A DNA stretch of 32,433 bases, taken from a virus. Positions 2,363-6,664 of the stretch are shown piece by piece. The notes under the pieces were generated by a model. It saw only the letters and a program-made list of their open reading frames with translations, searched no databases and had not been told where the DNA came from. The position numbers and the translations under genes are program-made. How positions within the stretch are numbered: position 1 is the stretch's first letter; the number at the start of each line of letters is the position of its first letter. Where the stretch lies: IMG/VR virus record IMGVR_UViG_3300042924_001029, positions 1-32,433 of that record; one strand, given 5' to 3'.

Positions 2363-2682
2363 GCATTAAAGCAATGAAGCTGGCTGCTGACAAGTTGGAG
2401 ATTGGGTTGGCTTATCCCGGTATGCGGCTTTATCACGACGACATCCGTGCAGCCATCGCCGCCCTCCGCGCCGCCATCGAGCAGGCTGAGAAGCAGGAGC
2501 AGGATGGGGTTGGCTGGCTTCGAAAAGACGGGGGCTATTTTGCCCAATCCGCAGCACAGCAAGAAGCAGTGCTGGCCGAGCGCGAGGCGTGTGCGAAGGT
2601 GGTGGAGGCCAGTCCATCGTATGACTGGCATCGCTTTGCCTGTGAAGCTGCCGCCGCCATCCGAGCGAGGGGGCAAGAATGA
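2359..2682 (+). CDS. Conserved phage protein of unknown function (107 aa)
   Basis: A mostly helical protein. Helix one is KAMKLAADKLEIG, helix two AAIAALRAAIEQAEKQEQ, then a Trp/Gly-containing turn (DGVGWLRKDGGYF) and helices with EREACAKVVEAS and a final AAAIRARGQE. The ending EREACAKV...AAAIRARG is a pattern I recognise from many uncharacterised phage and prophage proteins, with no known role. It starts in an ATGA overlap with the previous stop and ends in one with the next start. Confidence 0.75.
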   Translation: MSIKAMKLAADKLEIGLAYPGMRLYHDDIRAAIAALRAAIEQAEKQEQDGVGWLRKDGGYFAQSAAQQEAVLAEREACAKVVEASPSYDWHRFACEAAAAIRARGQE

Positions 2683-2906
2683 GCAAACTCAAAACCTTGA
2701 CCATCCCTGATCACCACAAGGTGCAGGCCAAGGCGGTGCTGAACGAGGCTGCCGATGAGCAGCCCGACTCTGTGATCGTGCTGTGCTTCTGGAAAGACCG
2801 GGGCCAGTTCAAGATCAAGACATCGACAGTGCCTGACCGGCTTACCCTGATCGGTGCGCTGGAGGAGGCGAAGAACAAAGTCATTACGGATGGGTATGCA
2901 TCATGA
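2679..2906 (+). CDS. Small protein, unknown (75 aa)
   Basis: An alpha/beta protein of 75 residues. It opens with a strand, then a helix (HHKVQAKAVLNEAADEQ), the hydrophobic strand DSVIVLCFW, a basic loop KDRGQFKIKTSTV and a C-terminal helix (LTLIGALEEAKNKVI). No motif or family is recognised. ATGA overlaps at both ends place it in a strictly coupled group running from 2359 to 3205. Confidence 0.7.
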   Translation: MSKLKTLTIPDHHKVQAKAVLNEAADEQPDSVIVLCFWKDRGQFKIKTSTVPDRLTLIGALEEAKNKVITDGYAS

Positions 2907-3205
2907 AGCCGTTGAGCAAACTACACGCGGAAGCCGTTGCCAAGGCAAAGACAGACGATGAGAAAGTCAAAGCCGCAGCGGTTGCCATGATTGAAACGCC
3001 GATGGAGATGATCCGCGCCATCTTGCTCAAGCACGAGCAAGCGGTCATTGAGGTGATGAAGGAATTGTCTGAGGAGCGTGATCGTGCGCTTGAACTACTG
3101 CGCCAAGCAGAGACAGAGATGCGCTACGCAGGATGGAACAAGTACGAGACAGACAACAGCGCCCGCAACGGCGTGTACGAGCAGATCGTGGGGTTTTTGA
3201 AATGA
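2903..3205 (+). CDS. Coiled-coil small protein, unknown (100 aa)
   Basis: Almost entirely helical and highly charged. Residues about 5-85 have a repeating hydrophobic spacing (EMIRAILLKHEQAVIEVMKE, then ERDRALELLRQAETEM), consistent with a coiled coil. The end (ARNGVYEQIVGFLK) looks like a short closing helix. No enzyme motif is present. It overlaps both neighbours by an ATGA. Function unknown. Confidence 0.7.
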   Translation: MKPLSKLHAEAVAKAKTDDEKVKAAAVAMIETPMEMIRAILLKHEQAVIEVMKELSEERDRALELLRQAETEMRYAGWNKYETDNSARNGVYEQIVGFLK

Positions 3206-3444
3206 GAACACACAAAGACAAGCTACAGGCGCTGCTGCACTACCTTGAACTTAACACTGTGATTGCCACGTACCGCCTGCGAGCCGAACAGTTCTATGAC
3301 ATGGATGACGAGGTAACAAGTTGGGAATATTTGTTCCGCTGGGTCAAGGCAAAGGACCAACGCGCTCAGATGTGGACATGGTTCCAGGACGAATATTCAG
3401 ACGCCGTGATACTCAAGGAGGGATACTATGAAACACACAAATGA
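3202..3444 (+). CDS. Small protein, unknown (80 aa)
   Basis: A helical protein rich in aromatic residues (EQFYDMDDEVTSWEYLFRWV, then QMWTWFQDEYSD). The start is ATG 3202, in an ATGA overlap with the previous gene; a longer in-frame extension upstream lies inside the 2903 gene and is not supported. Its last 17 bases overlap the next gene, whose GGAGG ribosome site lies inside this coding sequence. No family is recognised. Confidence 0.7.
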   Translation: MRTHKDKLQALLHYLELNTVIATYRLRAEQFYDMDDEVTSWEYLFRWVKAKDQRAQMWTWFQDEYSDAVILKEGYYETHK

Positions 3445-3649
3445 CATCATTGCAATGGCGCGGGAGGTTGGTTTTGTTGCATACGGCGAGGACGCTGGCG
3501 AATACCGCATACCGACACCCGCTTTCCACACTCGCCTTGAACGCTTCGCCGCTCTTGTCGCAGACCGCTGCGCCGAGATCGCATACGAAGCCGAGCCGTT
3601 CTATTCTGCTGACCTTATCCGAAAGGAGTTCAATTGTGAAAAACGGTGA
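3428..3649 (+). CDS. Small conserved phage protein, unknown (73 aa)
   Basis: The product has the pattern MAREVGF...RIPTPAFHTRLERFAALVAD followed by CAEIAYEAE. This is seen in many small uncharacterised phage proteins near replication or accessory genes; I know no function for it. A GGAGG (3418-3422) lies just before the ATG at 3428. The C-terminus is basic and ends FNCEKR, and the final 14 bases overlap the small membrane peptide gene at 3636. Confidence 0.7.
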   Translation: MKHTNDIIAMAREVGFVAYGEDAGEYRIPTPAFHTRLERFAALVADRCAEIAYEAEPFYSADLIRKEFNCEKR

Positions 3650-3722
3650 AGAAGGACTGATCTGGGAAGTGCTGGCAGCCGTATCGTTCTTCGGTGCAGT
3701 CCTTCTTGCGTGCTTTTTGTAA
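3636..3722 (+). CDS. 28-aa single-pass membrane micro-protein
   Basis: A GTG start follows a strong AAAGGAG (3622-3628) with seven bases between. The peptide is a short polar acidic head (KNGEEG) and one hydrophobic segment of about 20 residues (IWEVLAAVSFFGAVLLACFL) that runs to the very end. This is enough for one transmembrane helix with the N-terminus inside or outside. It could be a holin-like or host-membrane-modulating peptide, but it is too short to place in a family. It is the last gene before the 3723-4299 gap. Confidence 0.6.
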   Translation: MKNGEEGLIWEVLAAVSFFGAVLLACFL

Positions 3723-3778
3723 CCGAATCGAAACCCAGTCGAAAGCGAATCGGTTATAAAAATACTTCGTAGCATCTG

Positions 3779-3806
3779 TTGACACACGTTGAGTCGGGCG
3801 TATACT
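3779..3806 (+). promoter_or_regulatory. Strong sigma-70 promoter
   Basis: TTGACA (3779-3784), 16 bases, TATACT (3801-3806). The -35 is a perfect consensus and the -10 differs at one base. It is the best housekeeping-type promoter I see in the window. Transcription should start near 3813 and give the short RNA that ends at the terminator at 3910. Confidence 0.85.
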
Positions 3807-3833
3807 TCGCTCCGTTGCCGTAGGAAGCGACAG

Positions 3834-3899
3834 ATGAAGGCCGTTTACTCATGCTCCTGCCCTTGGTCAAACAAGGGTTCCTACCGGGAGCAGCAGTAA
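3834..3899 (+). CDS. Possible 21-codon peptide inside the small RNA
   Basis: ATG at 3834 has AGGAAG (3822-3827) six bases upstream, which is good spacing. The 21-codon frame encodes MKAVYSCSCP followed by WSNKGSYREQQ. It has two Cys and one Trp and stops at 3897-3899, inside the 3' arm of the terminator stem. Translation would melt the rod, so it could be a leader or regulatory peptide, or a small product in its own right. The ribosome site supports it; the short length leaves doubt. Confidence 0.45.
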   Translation: MKAVYSCSCPWSNKGSYREQQ

Positions 3900-3910
3900 A
3901 CGGCTTTTTT
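3840..3910 (+). terminator. Rho-independent terminator of the small RNA
   Basis: GCCGTTTACT (3840-3849) pairs perfectly with AGTAAACGGC (3895-3904), immediately followed by TTTTTT (3905-3910). The loop is long but itself folded. A perfect stem plus a T6 run is a textbook intrinsic terminator. Confidence 0.85.
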
Positions 3911-3952
3911 GTTTCCAGTGGTAACCGCACATCATGCGGTACGTCGGTGGTG

Positions 3953-4141
3953 ATGAATGCGAAACCCCGTGACACGAGCAAGCCAGAGCGGGGGCGGTGG
4001 GCGAATCCCAGAGCCGGGCGGTTGAAAGAAGTCTGGGATGCTGTCGAGGAATGGCTCCATACGGCAGGAAAGCGGGCCCGTGTCTCACGGTATGGGCTTG
4101 CTATGCTCAGAATTCCACCACCGGCAGTCGAAATCGGTTAA
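3953..4141 (+). CDS. Doubtful 62-aa basic protein in the 3.9-4.1 kb gap
   Basis: An open frame of 62 codons starts at ATG 3953. The product begins with a basic, proline-containing stretch (KPRDTSKPERGRWANPRAGR), then a plausible helix (LKEVWDAVEEWLHTAGKRA), and ends IPPPAVEIG. Ribosome binding is weak (GGTGG close to the ATG). Several inverted repeats overlap the same bases, so the stretch may be structured RNA or a packaging region rather than a gene. No homology is recognised. Confidence 0.3.
   Translation: MNAKPRDTSKPERGRWANPRAGRLKEVWDAVEEWLHTAGKRARVSRYGLAMLRIPPPAVEIG
4005..4102 (+). other. Cluster of inverted repeats (possible structured RNA or DNA site)
   Basis: ATCCCAGA (4005-4012) pairs with TCTGGGAT (4032-4039). 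CCATAC (4057-4062) pairs with GTATGG (4090-4095). CGTG (4079-4082) pairs with CACG (4086-4089) inside it. AGCAAGCC (3977-3984) is complementary to GGCTTGCT (4095-4102), crossing the others. This is more pairing than expected in about 120 bases, next to the terminase genes. It could be a structured RNA or a packaging-initiation region; neither is proven. Confidence 0.35.
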
Positions 4142-4238
4142 AATGGCAAGGCGGGCGAAGCTCCGAGAGCGCATGCGCCGGTAGGGTAGTAGTCCGCACC
4201 AACAATCAAGCGAGTCAACAGCGAAACGAAAGCGAAGA
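4126..4238 (+). promoter_or_regulatory. Upstream region of the Cys-rich peptide gene with third CAACAGCGAA leader
   Basis: GTCGAAA and TCGGTTAAAAT (to 4144) resemble GTCGAAA and TCGGTTATAAAAAT at 3739-3762, giving a -10-like TAAAAT (4139-4144). A perfect 10-base palindrome GCGCATGCGC lies at 4169-4178. Farther down, TCAACAGCGAAACGAAAGCGAA (4215-4236) is a diverged copy of the leader seen at 286 and 1649. It is probably the promoter and leader for the packaging operon; no -35 is clear. Confidence 0.35.
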
Positions 4239-4299
4239 GAAACCGATTCGGTTTCGACCGGTGAACCGCCGGGAAACATCAAACCTCAAGGAGAGAGAA

Positions 4300-4452
4300 A
4301 TGGTGAAAAGGATTCTTGCCGCTTTCGGCATTGCACTCGTAACGACCGGTGCTTGGGCTCAATGCTCTACGCATACGATCTTCAGCGGTAGCCGTATGGT
4401 GACATGCACGACGTGCTGCTACGGCGGAAACTGCACGACCAACTGCTTCTGA
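4300..4452 (+). CDS. Secreted Cys-rich micro-protein (50 aa)
   Basis: A typical signal peptide (basic VKR, hydrophobic ILAAFGIALVTTG, then AWA before Gln) should be cut after residue 20. That leaves a mature peptide of 30 residues with six Cys (pattern C...C..CC....C...C) and many Thr/Ser. This suggests a disulfide-knotted peptide in the periplasm. A strong AAGGAGAGAG lies before the ATG; GTG three bases on is an alternative start. Genes of this type (signal peptide plus CTTCCYGG-like core) appear, as far as I recall, near terminase genes of uncultured phages, with no known function. The stop is two bases before the small terminase ATG. Confidence 0.7.
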   Translation: MVKRILAAFGIALVTTGAWAQCSTHTIFSGSRMVTCTTCCYGGNCTTNCF

Positions 4453-4454
4453 CC

Positions 4455-5051
4455 ATGCCGCGCAAGCCCCTAGAGGCCCCTCAGAAGGCCGAAAAGCCGC
4501 GGGCTAAGGGTAAGGTAGCCCCAGAGCCGCAAATCGCCCAGGAGCCCGCAAAGAAGAAGATGGGCAGGCCAACGATGTACACCCAACAGATGGCAAGCCT
4601 CATCTGCCTGCGAATAGCAGAAGGGGAGAGCCTGAGGGAGATCGTAAAGACGGAGGGGATGCCAGAGCGGACTACGATCTATGAGTGGCTGCTCAACAAG
4701 CCCGACTTTGCTGACCAATACACTCGCGCACGGGAAGAGCAGGCTGACACCCTGGCCGACGAGATCATCGCCATCGCCGACGAGCAGCCCGAGATCATCC
4801 CGGTGATCGACCGCCGCACCGGGGAGTTGATCGAGCACAAGCTGGACGGGGCCTTCCTTCAATGGCAGAAGAACCGGATCGACGCCAGGAAGTGGACGGC
4901 CATGAAGCTCAAGCCCAAGAAGTACGGGGAGCGGGTGGCCCTGGCCGGGGATGCGGACAACCCGATCAAGGTCGAGGCCGAGGTGCAGGCTGAGAACCTG
5001 CTTTCGGCGATGCTCAAGAACGTCGAGCTCAAGAAGCAAGTCGATGACTGA
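4455..5051 (+). CDS. terS: Terminase small subunit
   Basis: The small terminase recognises phage DNA and starts packaging together with the large subunit encoded next. The 198-residue product has a Lys/Pro/Ala-rich flexible N-terminus (1-35), then GRPTMYTQQM and a helix-turn-helix at about 57-80 (GESLREIVKTEGMPERTTIY). This is the DNA-binding pattern of this terminase family. A long helical region follows (YTRAREEQADTLADEIIAIA), a segment ending in KKYGERV, and a C-terminal helix likely for oligomerisation or TerL contact. ATG 4455 is preferred over an in-frame ATG at 4404, which would overlap the whole end of the Cys-rich peptide gene. It overlaps terL by 8 bases. Confidence 0.88.
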   Translation: MPRKPLEAPQKAEKPRAKGKVAPEPQIAQEPAKKKMGRPTMYTQQMASLICLRIAEGESLREIVKTEGMPERTTIYEWLLNKPDFADQYTRAREEQADTLADEIIAIADEQPEIIPVIDRRTGELIEHKLDGAFLQWQKNRIDARKWTAMKLKPKKYGERVALAGDADNPIKVEAEVQAENLLSAMLKNVELKKQVDD

Positions 5052-6462
5052 CGTAGCCGAGATCCTCGCCGACCCCCAGGTGCAGGCGAGTCTCAAGGCG
5101 GTAAAGCCGGAGGTAAGGCTTGCCTGGGCATGGCGCATGAACTGGTTCCAGGCCCAGCACAAGCATCAGGTGCTGCCGCACGGGGACTGGTGGTCGATCT
5201 GGCTGATGCTCGCTGGCCGCGGTGCCGGCAAGACCCGGACTGCCGCAGAGCAGATCGGCTGGTGGGCTTGGGAGAACCCCGGCACCCGCTGGCTGGTGGC
5301 CGCCCCGACATCGAGCGACGTCCGCTCCACCTGCTTTGAGGGCGACTCCGGCCTCATGACAGTGATCCCGTCGGCCCTGATCGCCGACTACAACAAGGCC
5401 CTCCACGAGCTCAAGCTGATCAATGGGAGCTTGATCAAGGGCATCCCGGCGTCGGAGCCCGAGCGTTTCCGGGGCCCGCAGTTTCATGGCGCTTGGTGCG
5501 ACGAGCTTGCGGCCTGGGACTATCTTCAGGACGCATGGGACCAGATCATGTTCGGCGTCCGCCTAGGCACCCGCACCCGTATCATTTGCACCACAACCCC
5601 GAAACCCAAGGATTTGATCGTCGAGCTTGTGGGCCGGGAGGGCGACGACGTGGTGCTGACGACCGCCTCGACCTACGCCAATCTTGCGAACCTGTCGGAC
5701 AACTTCAGGAAGCAGATCCTTCAATATGAGGGCACGACCCTGGGCCGCCAGGAGATCTACGCCGAGATCATCGACCCCGAGGAGGGCGGCATCGTCAGCC
5801 GGGACATGTTCAAGCTCTGGCCTGCCGGGCGGGCCTTCCCGAAGTTCGAGTACATCCTCCAGTCCTACGACGTGGCCACCAGCGAGAAGGTGCAGAACGA
5901 CCCGACCGCCTGCATCACGTTCGGCGTGTTCAAGCCCCTGGACGGCCCGATGAGCGCGATGGTGATCGACTGCTGGCAAGAGCGAATGCAGTACCCGGAT
6001 CTGCGCCCCAAGGTCATCGAGGAGTACGAGACCGTCTTCGGCGAGGGCAAGGACAAGAAGCGGGTCGATCTGCTGCTGATCGAGGACAAGAGCGCCGGCA
6101 TCAGCCTGATTCAGGACTTGCAGCGGGCGCACCTGCCCATTCGCGCCTACAACCCAGGCAAGGCTGACAAGGTGCAGCGCCTGAACATCGTCTCCAACAT
6201 CATCGCCCGTGGCCGGGTCTGGATCCCCGAGTCGGACGCCAGGAAGGGCTACGTCAAGGACTGGGCCGAGGGGTTCGTGAGCCAGATCTGCTCGTTCCCC
6301 GAGACTACGCACGACGACTACGTCGATGCCTGCACCCAGGCCCTGCGGTATCTGCGTGACGCCGGCTGGCTTGAGATCGACCCGCCTCCCCGCGATGACT
6401 GGGACGACGAGGATTACGCCGACACCGGCAGGCAGCGTAGGGTTAACCCGTATGCAGTCTGA
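5044..6462 (+). CDS. terL: Terminase large subunit (packaging ATPase/nuclease)
   Basis: The motor that pumps DNA into the prohead and cuts the concatemer. The 472-residue protein has Walker A GRGAGKT at 58-64, Walker B with acidic pair at about 153-154 (WCDELAAW), and a CTTTPKP coupling motif after it. The C-terminal RNase H-like nuclease has its first acidic residue in LQSYDVAT, the second in LLLIEDKSAG, and the third around THDDYVDACTQAL. Length and domain order are normal for the family, so it looks intact. The start ATG lies inside the end of terS (translational coupling); its own stop overlaps the next small gene. Confidence 0.95.
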   Translation: MTDVAEILADPQVQASLKAVKPEVRLAWAWRMNWFQAQHKHQVLPHGDWWSIWLMLAGRGAGKTRTAAEQIGWWAWENPGTRWLVAAPTSSDVRSTCFEGDSGLMTVIPSALIADYNKALHELKLINGSLIKGIPASEPERFRGPQFHGAWCDELAAWDYLQDAWDQIMFGVRLGTRTRIICTTTPKPKDLIVELVGREGDDVVLTTASTYANLANLSDNFRKQILQYEGTTLGRQEIYAEIIDPEEGGIVSRDMFKLWPAGRAFPKFEYILQSYDVATSEKVQNDPTACITFGVFKPLDGPMSAMVIDCWQERMQYPDLRPKVIEEYETVFGEGKDKKRVDLLLIEDKSAGISLIQDLQRAHLPIRAYNPGKADKVQRLNIVSNIIARGRVWIPESDARKGYVKDWAEGFVSQICSFPETTHDDYVDACTQALRYLRDAGWLEIDPPPRDDWDDEDYADTGRQRRVNPYAV

Positions 6463-6664
6463 AGCGTCATGGATGTCCATCACTGGCGTGACCGACTCGG
6501 GCGGTCTGGTGACCCACGTCCTGCCGATTGACGACACGCACGAGCACGAGCTCTCGTCCGATTGCTGGTGCGAGCCGTACCTCGACCACGAGCATTGGGT
6601 GGCCACGCACCAAAGCGCAGATGGCCGGGAGGCGTTCGAGAGCGGCGCGAGGAAGCCTTCATGA
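6452..6664 (+). CDS. Small His/Cys-containing phage protein (70 aa)
   Basis: A short protein with the cluster VLPIDDTHEHELSSDCWCEP and then DHEHW near residues 23-50. This gives several His and two Cys that could bind a metal. The block PI.D...HE.S..CWC.P followed by SADGREAFE is one I recall from small uncharacterised phage proteins near terminase genes. Function unknown. It overlaps terL by 11 bases and the next gene by an ATGA. Confidence 0.7.
   Translation: MQSEASWMSITGVTDSGGLVTHVLPIDDTHEHELSSDCWCEPYLDHEHWVATHQSADGREAFESGARKPS

Follow-up and report, generated by a model that had tools for sequence, protein, structure and literature searches.

Promoter-to-terminator unit in the window

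The window, which is the whole stretch of 32,433 bases analysed here, is an IMG/VR virus record in which phage terminase, portal and head genes are present. A gene at 1054-1605 has a sigma-factor match (phrog_351, E 4e-13) with the look of a region 4. Further downstream, a sigma-70-type promoter (-35 box TTGACA at 3779-3784, a 16-nt spacer and -10 box TATACT at 3801-3806) matches the consensus at 11 of 12 positions, and a perfect 10-bp stem (GCCGTTTACT at 3840-3849 with AGTAAACGGC at 3895-3904) runs into a T6 tract that ends at 3910; both lie exactly where the original prediction had placed them. The promoter is the sole sigma-70-like site with at least 9 of 12 matches within 2500-6500 and is weak proof by itself, since shuffled sequences average 1.2 such sites over the same interval. 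Aligned homologs have a -10-like box at the matching position, often lack the -35 box and also carry a T run 3' of the stem. That promoter, stem and U-tract are retained in homologs as one set supports the proposed single short promoter-to-terminator unit, the RNA of which is hereafter called RNA1 (Table 1).

The interpretation of this stretch as a rod-like phage RNA unit has thus held, while the peptide and switch readings offered with it have not, and a second structured RNA downstream, RNA2, had been overlooked. At 3721-3758 and 4241-4261, the cassette is flanked by inverted repeats (AACCGAATCG / CGAATCGGTT) and by a 21-nt pair (3735-3755 / 4241-4261), which may be likened to operator or recombination sites. 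Positions 4300-4452, which lie between RNA2 and the gene for the small terminase subunit, encode a small protein that is rich in cysteine and has a signal-like N-terminus (MVKRILAAFGIALVTTGAWAQCSTHTIFSG...).

Table 1 Features of the RNA1-RNA2 cassette in the window
Feature	Position	Strand	Remarks
Sigma-70-type promoter, TTGACA-16-TATACT	3779..3806	+	predicted start ~3813
RNA1, structured RNA of ~98 nt (predicted)	3813..3910	+	fold z -6.5, homologs, covariation
P1 hairpin, 3814-3818 with 3827-3831	3814..3831	+	98.7% paired; two-sided changes in 4/5 pairs
Pseudoknot 5' strand GUAGGAA, the P1 loop; contains AGGAAG	3820..3826	+	homologs, covariation
21-codon frame, judged incidental	3834..3899	+	frame not conserved
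P2, outer (terminator) stem, 3840-3849 with 3895-3904	3840..3904	+	two-sided changes in 10/10 pairs
CA/GY internal loop between P2 and P3, 3850-3851 / 3893-3894	3850..3894	+	
P3, 3852-3859 with 3885-3892	3852..3892	+	99% paired; two-sided changes in 7/8 pairs
P4, tip hairpin, 3860-3865 with 3872-3877	3860..3877	+	86.8% paired
Pseudoknot 3' strand UUCCUAC, bulge on 3' side of rod	3878..3884	+	97.4% paired; two-sided changes in 6/7 pairs
U-tract, T6	3905..3910	+	T run also 3' of stem in homologs
RNA2, motifs shared with Rfam RF02932 Betaproteobacteria-1	3920..4121	+	ends approximate
Direct repeat CGGCAG, 4062-4067 and 4122-4127	4062..4127	+	inside RNA2 and at its 3' edge

Fold and pseudoknot

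The folded 100 nt have a minimum free energy of -47.9 kcal/mol, against -27.4 +/- 3.1 for shuffled sequences (z = -6.5; 0 of 200 as low), and the three stacked helices that had been proposed to form one rod (P2, P3 and P4) are present at 3840-3904. Missing from that description were the 5' hairpin P1 and a 7-bp pseudoknot, in which the P1 loop pairs with a bulge between P4 and P3. The least constant helix is P4, the length of which differs among phages. The CA/GY internal loop is kept in most homologs, though not in the most divergent ones, its constancy in alignment A1 (see below) being partly due to the choice of pattern. The pseudoknot and the terminator stem use separate bases and do not compete; no competing (antiterminator) pairing was noticed in RNA1, and covariation supports all helices simultaneously. 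A tRNA-like nature of RNA1 was considered and rejected, as ARAGORN calls no tRNA there.

Homologs and covariation

More than 100 distinct homologs of RNA1 were found in IMG/VR phage contigs, counts that are lower bounds; many of the contigs are short and partly redundant. A scan of IMG/VR with a pattern for the outer stem only returned at least 65 stretches, nearly all of them homologs in which loop and bulge co-vary, for example GTAGTGG/CCACTAC (L039), GTTGCAC/GTGCAAC (L031) and GTCGTGG/CCACGAC (L025), and a looser pattern gave at least 120 matches. Among the 137 distinct pattern matches listed, 12 were discarded as chance occurrences inside other sequence, with neither stem, pseudoknot nor T-run; all others show the outer stem followed by a T-run, and those that include the 5' end add a pseudoknot of at least 6 and usually at least 7 bp, in about 40 different sequences.

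Alignment A1 holds 64 sequences collected by pattern, and its fixed TACTCATGC/GCAGYAGTA is partly a result of that selection. It shows two-sided changes in 25 of 36 pairs (373 such cells vs. 102 in shuffles), a signal that is lost when the register is slid. Because A1 was collected by pattern, we turned to a model (R1) built without the pseudoknot and to independently fetched members, namely alignment A3, the 49 distinct rows of which were obtained by terminase similarity or by a motif of the neighbouring RNA and not by any motif of RNA1. In A3, 97.4% of the pseudoknot cells are paired, and the covariation score of the pseudoknot is 0.651, compared to 0.179 +/- 0.020 in shuffles and only 0.04-0.18 in slid registers; the shuffle tests leave shared ancestry in, and the slid-register controls, which remove it, agree with them. 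Over all helices, compensatory changes occur in 33 of 36 pairs, among them each of the 10 pairs in the terminator stem, and the supposedly fixed sequence varies too (TTACACATGC, TTAAGCCTGA) while the architecture is unchanged. The window itself scores 114 bits against R1 and has the P1 hairpin, the terminator-closed rod and the compensated loop-to-bulge pseudoknot that define the family. The original prediction would have been refuted by stems broken without compensation in relatives; the covariation check found compensation, which favours the RNA. Comparative evidence of this kind puts the element far beyond chance.

A blastn search with several forms of the window RNA gave no match among named phages. 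Phages MW202545 and MW202484 were found only by RNA1 together with RNA2 of other groups, Acidovorax phage AP1 was retrieved by RNA2 alone, and nearly all members are uncultured contigs, with few exceptions. A contig in a MAG of the Comamonadaceae is among the carriers, and RNA1 occurs in 0 of 400 other genomes of the family. A bacterial chromosomal origin was rejected, as the 1 match in 401 Comamonadaceae genomes is the one known beforehand and lies on a short contig; matches of the model to the antisense strand, at ~20-30 bits, were set aside as echoes of the palindromic rod. Judging from these sequences, many uncultured freshwater phages appear to carry RNA1, with its shape kept by evolution.

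Genomic location

RNA1 is carried by 40 of 80 terminase relatives; 29 of these relatives have flanks of sufficient length on either side, and 17 of the 29 carry it. Its strand is that of the terminase in every case, and it lies 1.2-1.7 kb upstream, directly behind the stop codon (19 nt) or 0.2-1.8 kb away on the downstream side. In other carriers it adjoins replication-initiation, RusA, primase-helicase or portal genes, and in some it separates divergent recombination genes from a rightward operon. In MW202545, the terL of which is 71% identical to that of the window, it is found near the primase, behind a tRNA array and far from terL. The unit therefore shifts among neighbourhoods (terminase, replication, recombination, tRNA array) in the manner of stand-alone RNA genes, and this freedom of location favours a self-contained RNA gene and disfavours a packaging RNA. 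In Caulobacter phage RW, the annotation places a tRNA directly after terL.

RNA2 and its coupling to RNA1

RNA1 nearly always stands immediately 5' of RNA2. Usually 200-600 gene-free nucleotides follow RNA1, and the sequences there are linked by similarity in 102 of 110 loci, in several types. One of these is the Betaproteobacteria-1 RNA (RF02932), the gathering score of which is 49.4 bits: this threshold is reached at 64-103 bits by RNA2 of L003, L208, L024, L100 and L364 (83, 103, 93 and 64 bits, respectively, for the first four), and RNA2 of MW202545 scores 100 bits. RNA2 of this type mostly starts 10-15 nt past the U-tract of RNA1. In the window, RNA2 has covarying helices and shares motifs with confirmed RF02932 members, and it falls below the gathering score of the family, with no match up to E 10.

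RNA2 of the window type contains a direct repeat of 6-10 nt with a phage-specific sequence that matches within each phage. At 75 loci, most repeats share 6-9 nt, and copies taken from different phages mostly 3-4 nt. Acidovorax phage AP1 (OM049504; L363, 2961-3084) has an unannotated Betaproteobacteria-1 RNA (93 bits) directly behind the primase gene and lacks RNA1; as an isolated phage, it is a possible laboratory model for RNA2. The deposited annotation of MW202484 puts a hypothetical protein across the RNA1-RNA2 stretch (L365, 1523-1882), which is probably a false gene.

A reciprocal scan with an 18-nt RNA2 motif alone returned 68 loci not fetched before. A terminator rod lies just upstream of the motif in 61 of them, and 58 have a pseudoknot with like topology and 7 or more bp, compared to 0.4 per 94 in the shuffled upstream control. 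About 22 of these 58 have the window-class stem, and the remainder have unrelated stems (AACCCC..., AACCCTTTGG...). Such RNA1 classes of unrelated sequence and equal topology, in which a 5' segment pairs into the terminator rod, stand ~150 nt upstream of RNA2 in L257, L261, L264 and similar loci, and they have no Rfam match. A -10 box with at least 5 of 6 matches was found in the gap before RNA2 in 0 of 92 loci with the rod, and a -10 box precedes RNA2 in all three examined loci without RNA1 (L262, L268, L328). Near-identical RNA1 sequences stand before differing RNA2 types (L102 vs. L137; L138 vs. L146), which indicates that the two RNAs are separate exchangeable modules. In L295, L327, L355 and L182, RNA1 is separated from RNA2 by a third hairpin RNA, which is ~100 nt long. 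Sequence comparison establishes the fold, the pseudoknot, the boundaries of the unit and the coupling of RNA1 to RNA2.

Proposed function and alternatives

We consider RNA1 to be a new self-terminating structured noncoding RNA that heads a phage two-RNA operon and acts as an RNA, and give this reading a probability of roughly 0.55. Transcription, read-through, a protein partner and action in trans are what we infer for it. The host sigma-70 polymerase would initiate immediately 5' of the P1 hairpin, and the nascent RNA would fold into the rod, with a pseudoknot of 7-9 bp holding the 3' bulge of the rod against the hairpin loop. The outer stem and U-tract would terminate most transcripts, and polymerases that read through would make RNA2, which has no -10 box there. 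RNA1 would then owe its activity to its fold, most likely through a bound protein, and would serve neither as an mRNA nor as an antisense RNA; the protein partner is a guess. Action in trans is preferred for three reasons: RNA1 is not tied to one location, the modules are exchanged among loci, and a competing antiterminator could not be seen. That RNA1 classes of unrelated sequence are placed so tightly before RNA2 would suit a role in cis equally well.

The serious rival is accordingly a cis-acting leader, a pseudoknot-dependent conditional terminator that would set the amount of RNA2, with a ligand, a protein or the state of infection altering folding or termination. Its standing comes from the constant position before RNA2 and from a topology that recurs among unrelated sequence classes: the rod and pseudoknot were just upstream in 58 of the 68 loci picked only by the RNA2 motif, and a -10 box for RNA2 itself is confined to loci that lack RNA1. 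However, no antiterminator is visible, the pseudoknot and terminator stem not competing for bases; RNA1 and RNA2 types are swapped among loci; and the two can be separated by further RNAs or by a reading frame. We regard such a leader as possible, and as clearly less probable than a trans-acting RNA.

An antisense or sponge RNA, in which the hairpin loop or the linker would pair with an mRNA or a host small RNA, is unlikely. RNA1 is small and has its own promoter and terminator, the usual form of bacterial regulatory RNAs, but the loop sequence is free to vary provided that the rod strand paired with it stays complementary (~40 forms), the linker is variable, and a conserved unpaired seed is not seen in the alignment. 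Still less probable is a terminase packaging RNA acting like phi29 pRNA: although half of the terminase relatives (40/80) have RNA1 within 1.8 kb of terL and on the same strand, many homologs adjoin replication or recombination genes, that of MW202545 lies by the primase and tRNAs at a distance from terL, and conventional TerL/TerS genes are present.

A small peptide gene, or a switch in which translation disrupts the rod, can hardly be upheld: the ATG at 3834, AGGAAG at 3822-3827 (six bases upstream) and TAA at 3897-3899 are in place as the original prediction had them, and the nearest relatives share the ATG with AGGAAG, but start, frame and supposed ribosome-binding site are not conserved across homologs, and AGGAAG belongs to a strand of the pseudoknot and is not a ribosome site. 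The "Shine-Dalgarno" strand reads GTCGTGT, GTTGCAC, GTAGTGG and others elsewhere, and an ATG frame of at least 12 codons starting before the outer stem occurs in only 7 of 68 diverse homologs, at differing positions.

Returning to RNA1 as the head of a two-RNA operon, a wider and tentative proposal is that freshwater phages have a modular RNA operon in which a pseudoknotted self-terminating head RNA and exchangeable larger RNAs might form a joint takeover or counter-defence device. If true, this would be an RNA-based device unlike any described phage RNA system.

Comparison with known systems

The search with Rfam 15 covariance models gave no family at the gathering threshold over RNA1 and nothing up to E 5, in agreement with the early claim that no named family covers it. 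In the literature searched, with most subscription journals outside it, neither RNA1 nor an occurrence of RF02932 in phages is described. RNA1 is thus an apparently new, strongly covarying, pseudoknotted RNA family, common in uncultured freshwater phages and outside Rfam. Betaproteobacteria-1, which is the RNA2 of several relatives and shares motifs with that of the window, does not cover RNA1, a separate RNA upstream. It now gains a partner and a genomic context, which offers a route to testing the roles of both RNAs.

The phi29 pRNA is a small phage RNA with loop-loop contacts, and RNA1 resembles it in often lying near the terminase. In contrast to pRNA, the covariation of the RNA1 pseudoknot is explained within a single molecule, a three-way junction is not seen, and the location has no constant link to packaging genes. 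With terminator-type riboswitches and attenuators RNA1 shares the order of promoter, pseudoknotted structure, terminator and downstream product; it differs from them in that no competing antiterminator was noticed and that the downstream product is an RNA.

GOLLD and ROOL are structured RNAs of phages and prophages, of unknown function and often near tRNA islands (PMC12286853), and the RNA1-RNA2 cassette of MW202545 likewise follows a tRNA array. These RNAs are ~600-800 nt or more in length, whereas RNA1 has ~98 nt and matches no Rfam sequence or structure. As a structured phage RNA like GOLLD and ROOL, RNA1 belongs to a known kind; what is new, as far as can be told, is the arrangement of two RNAs in which the second module can be swapped.
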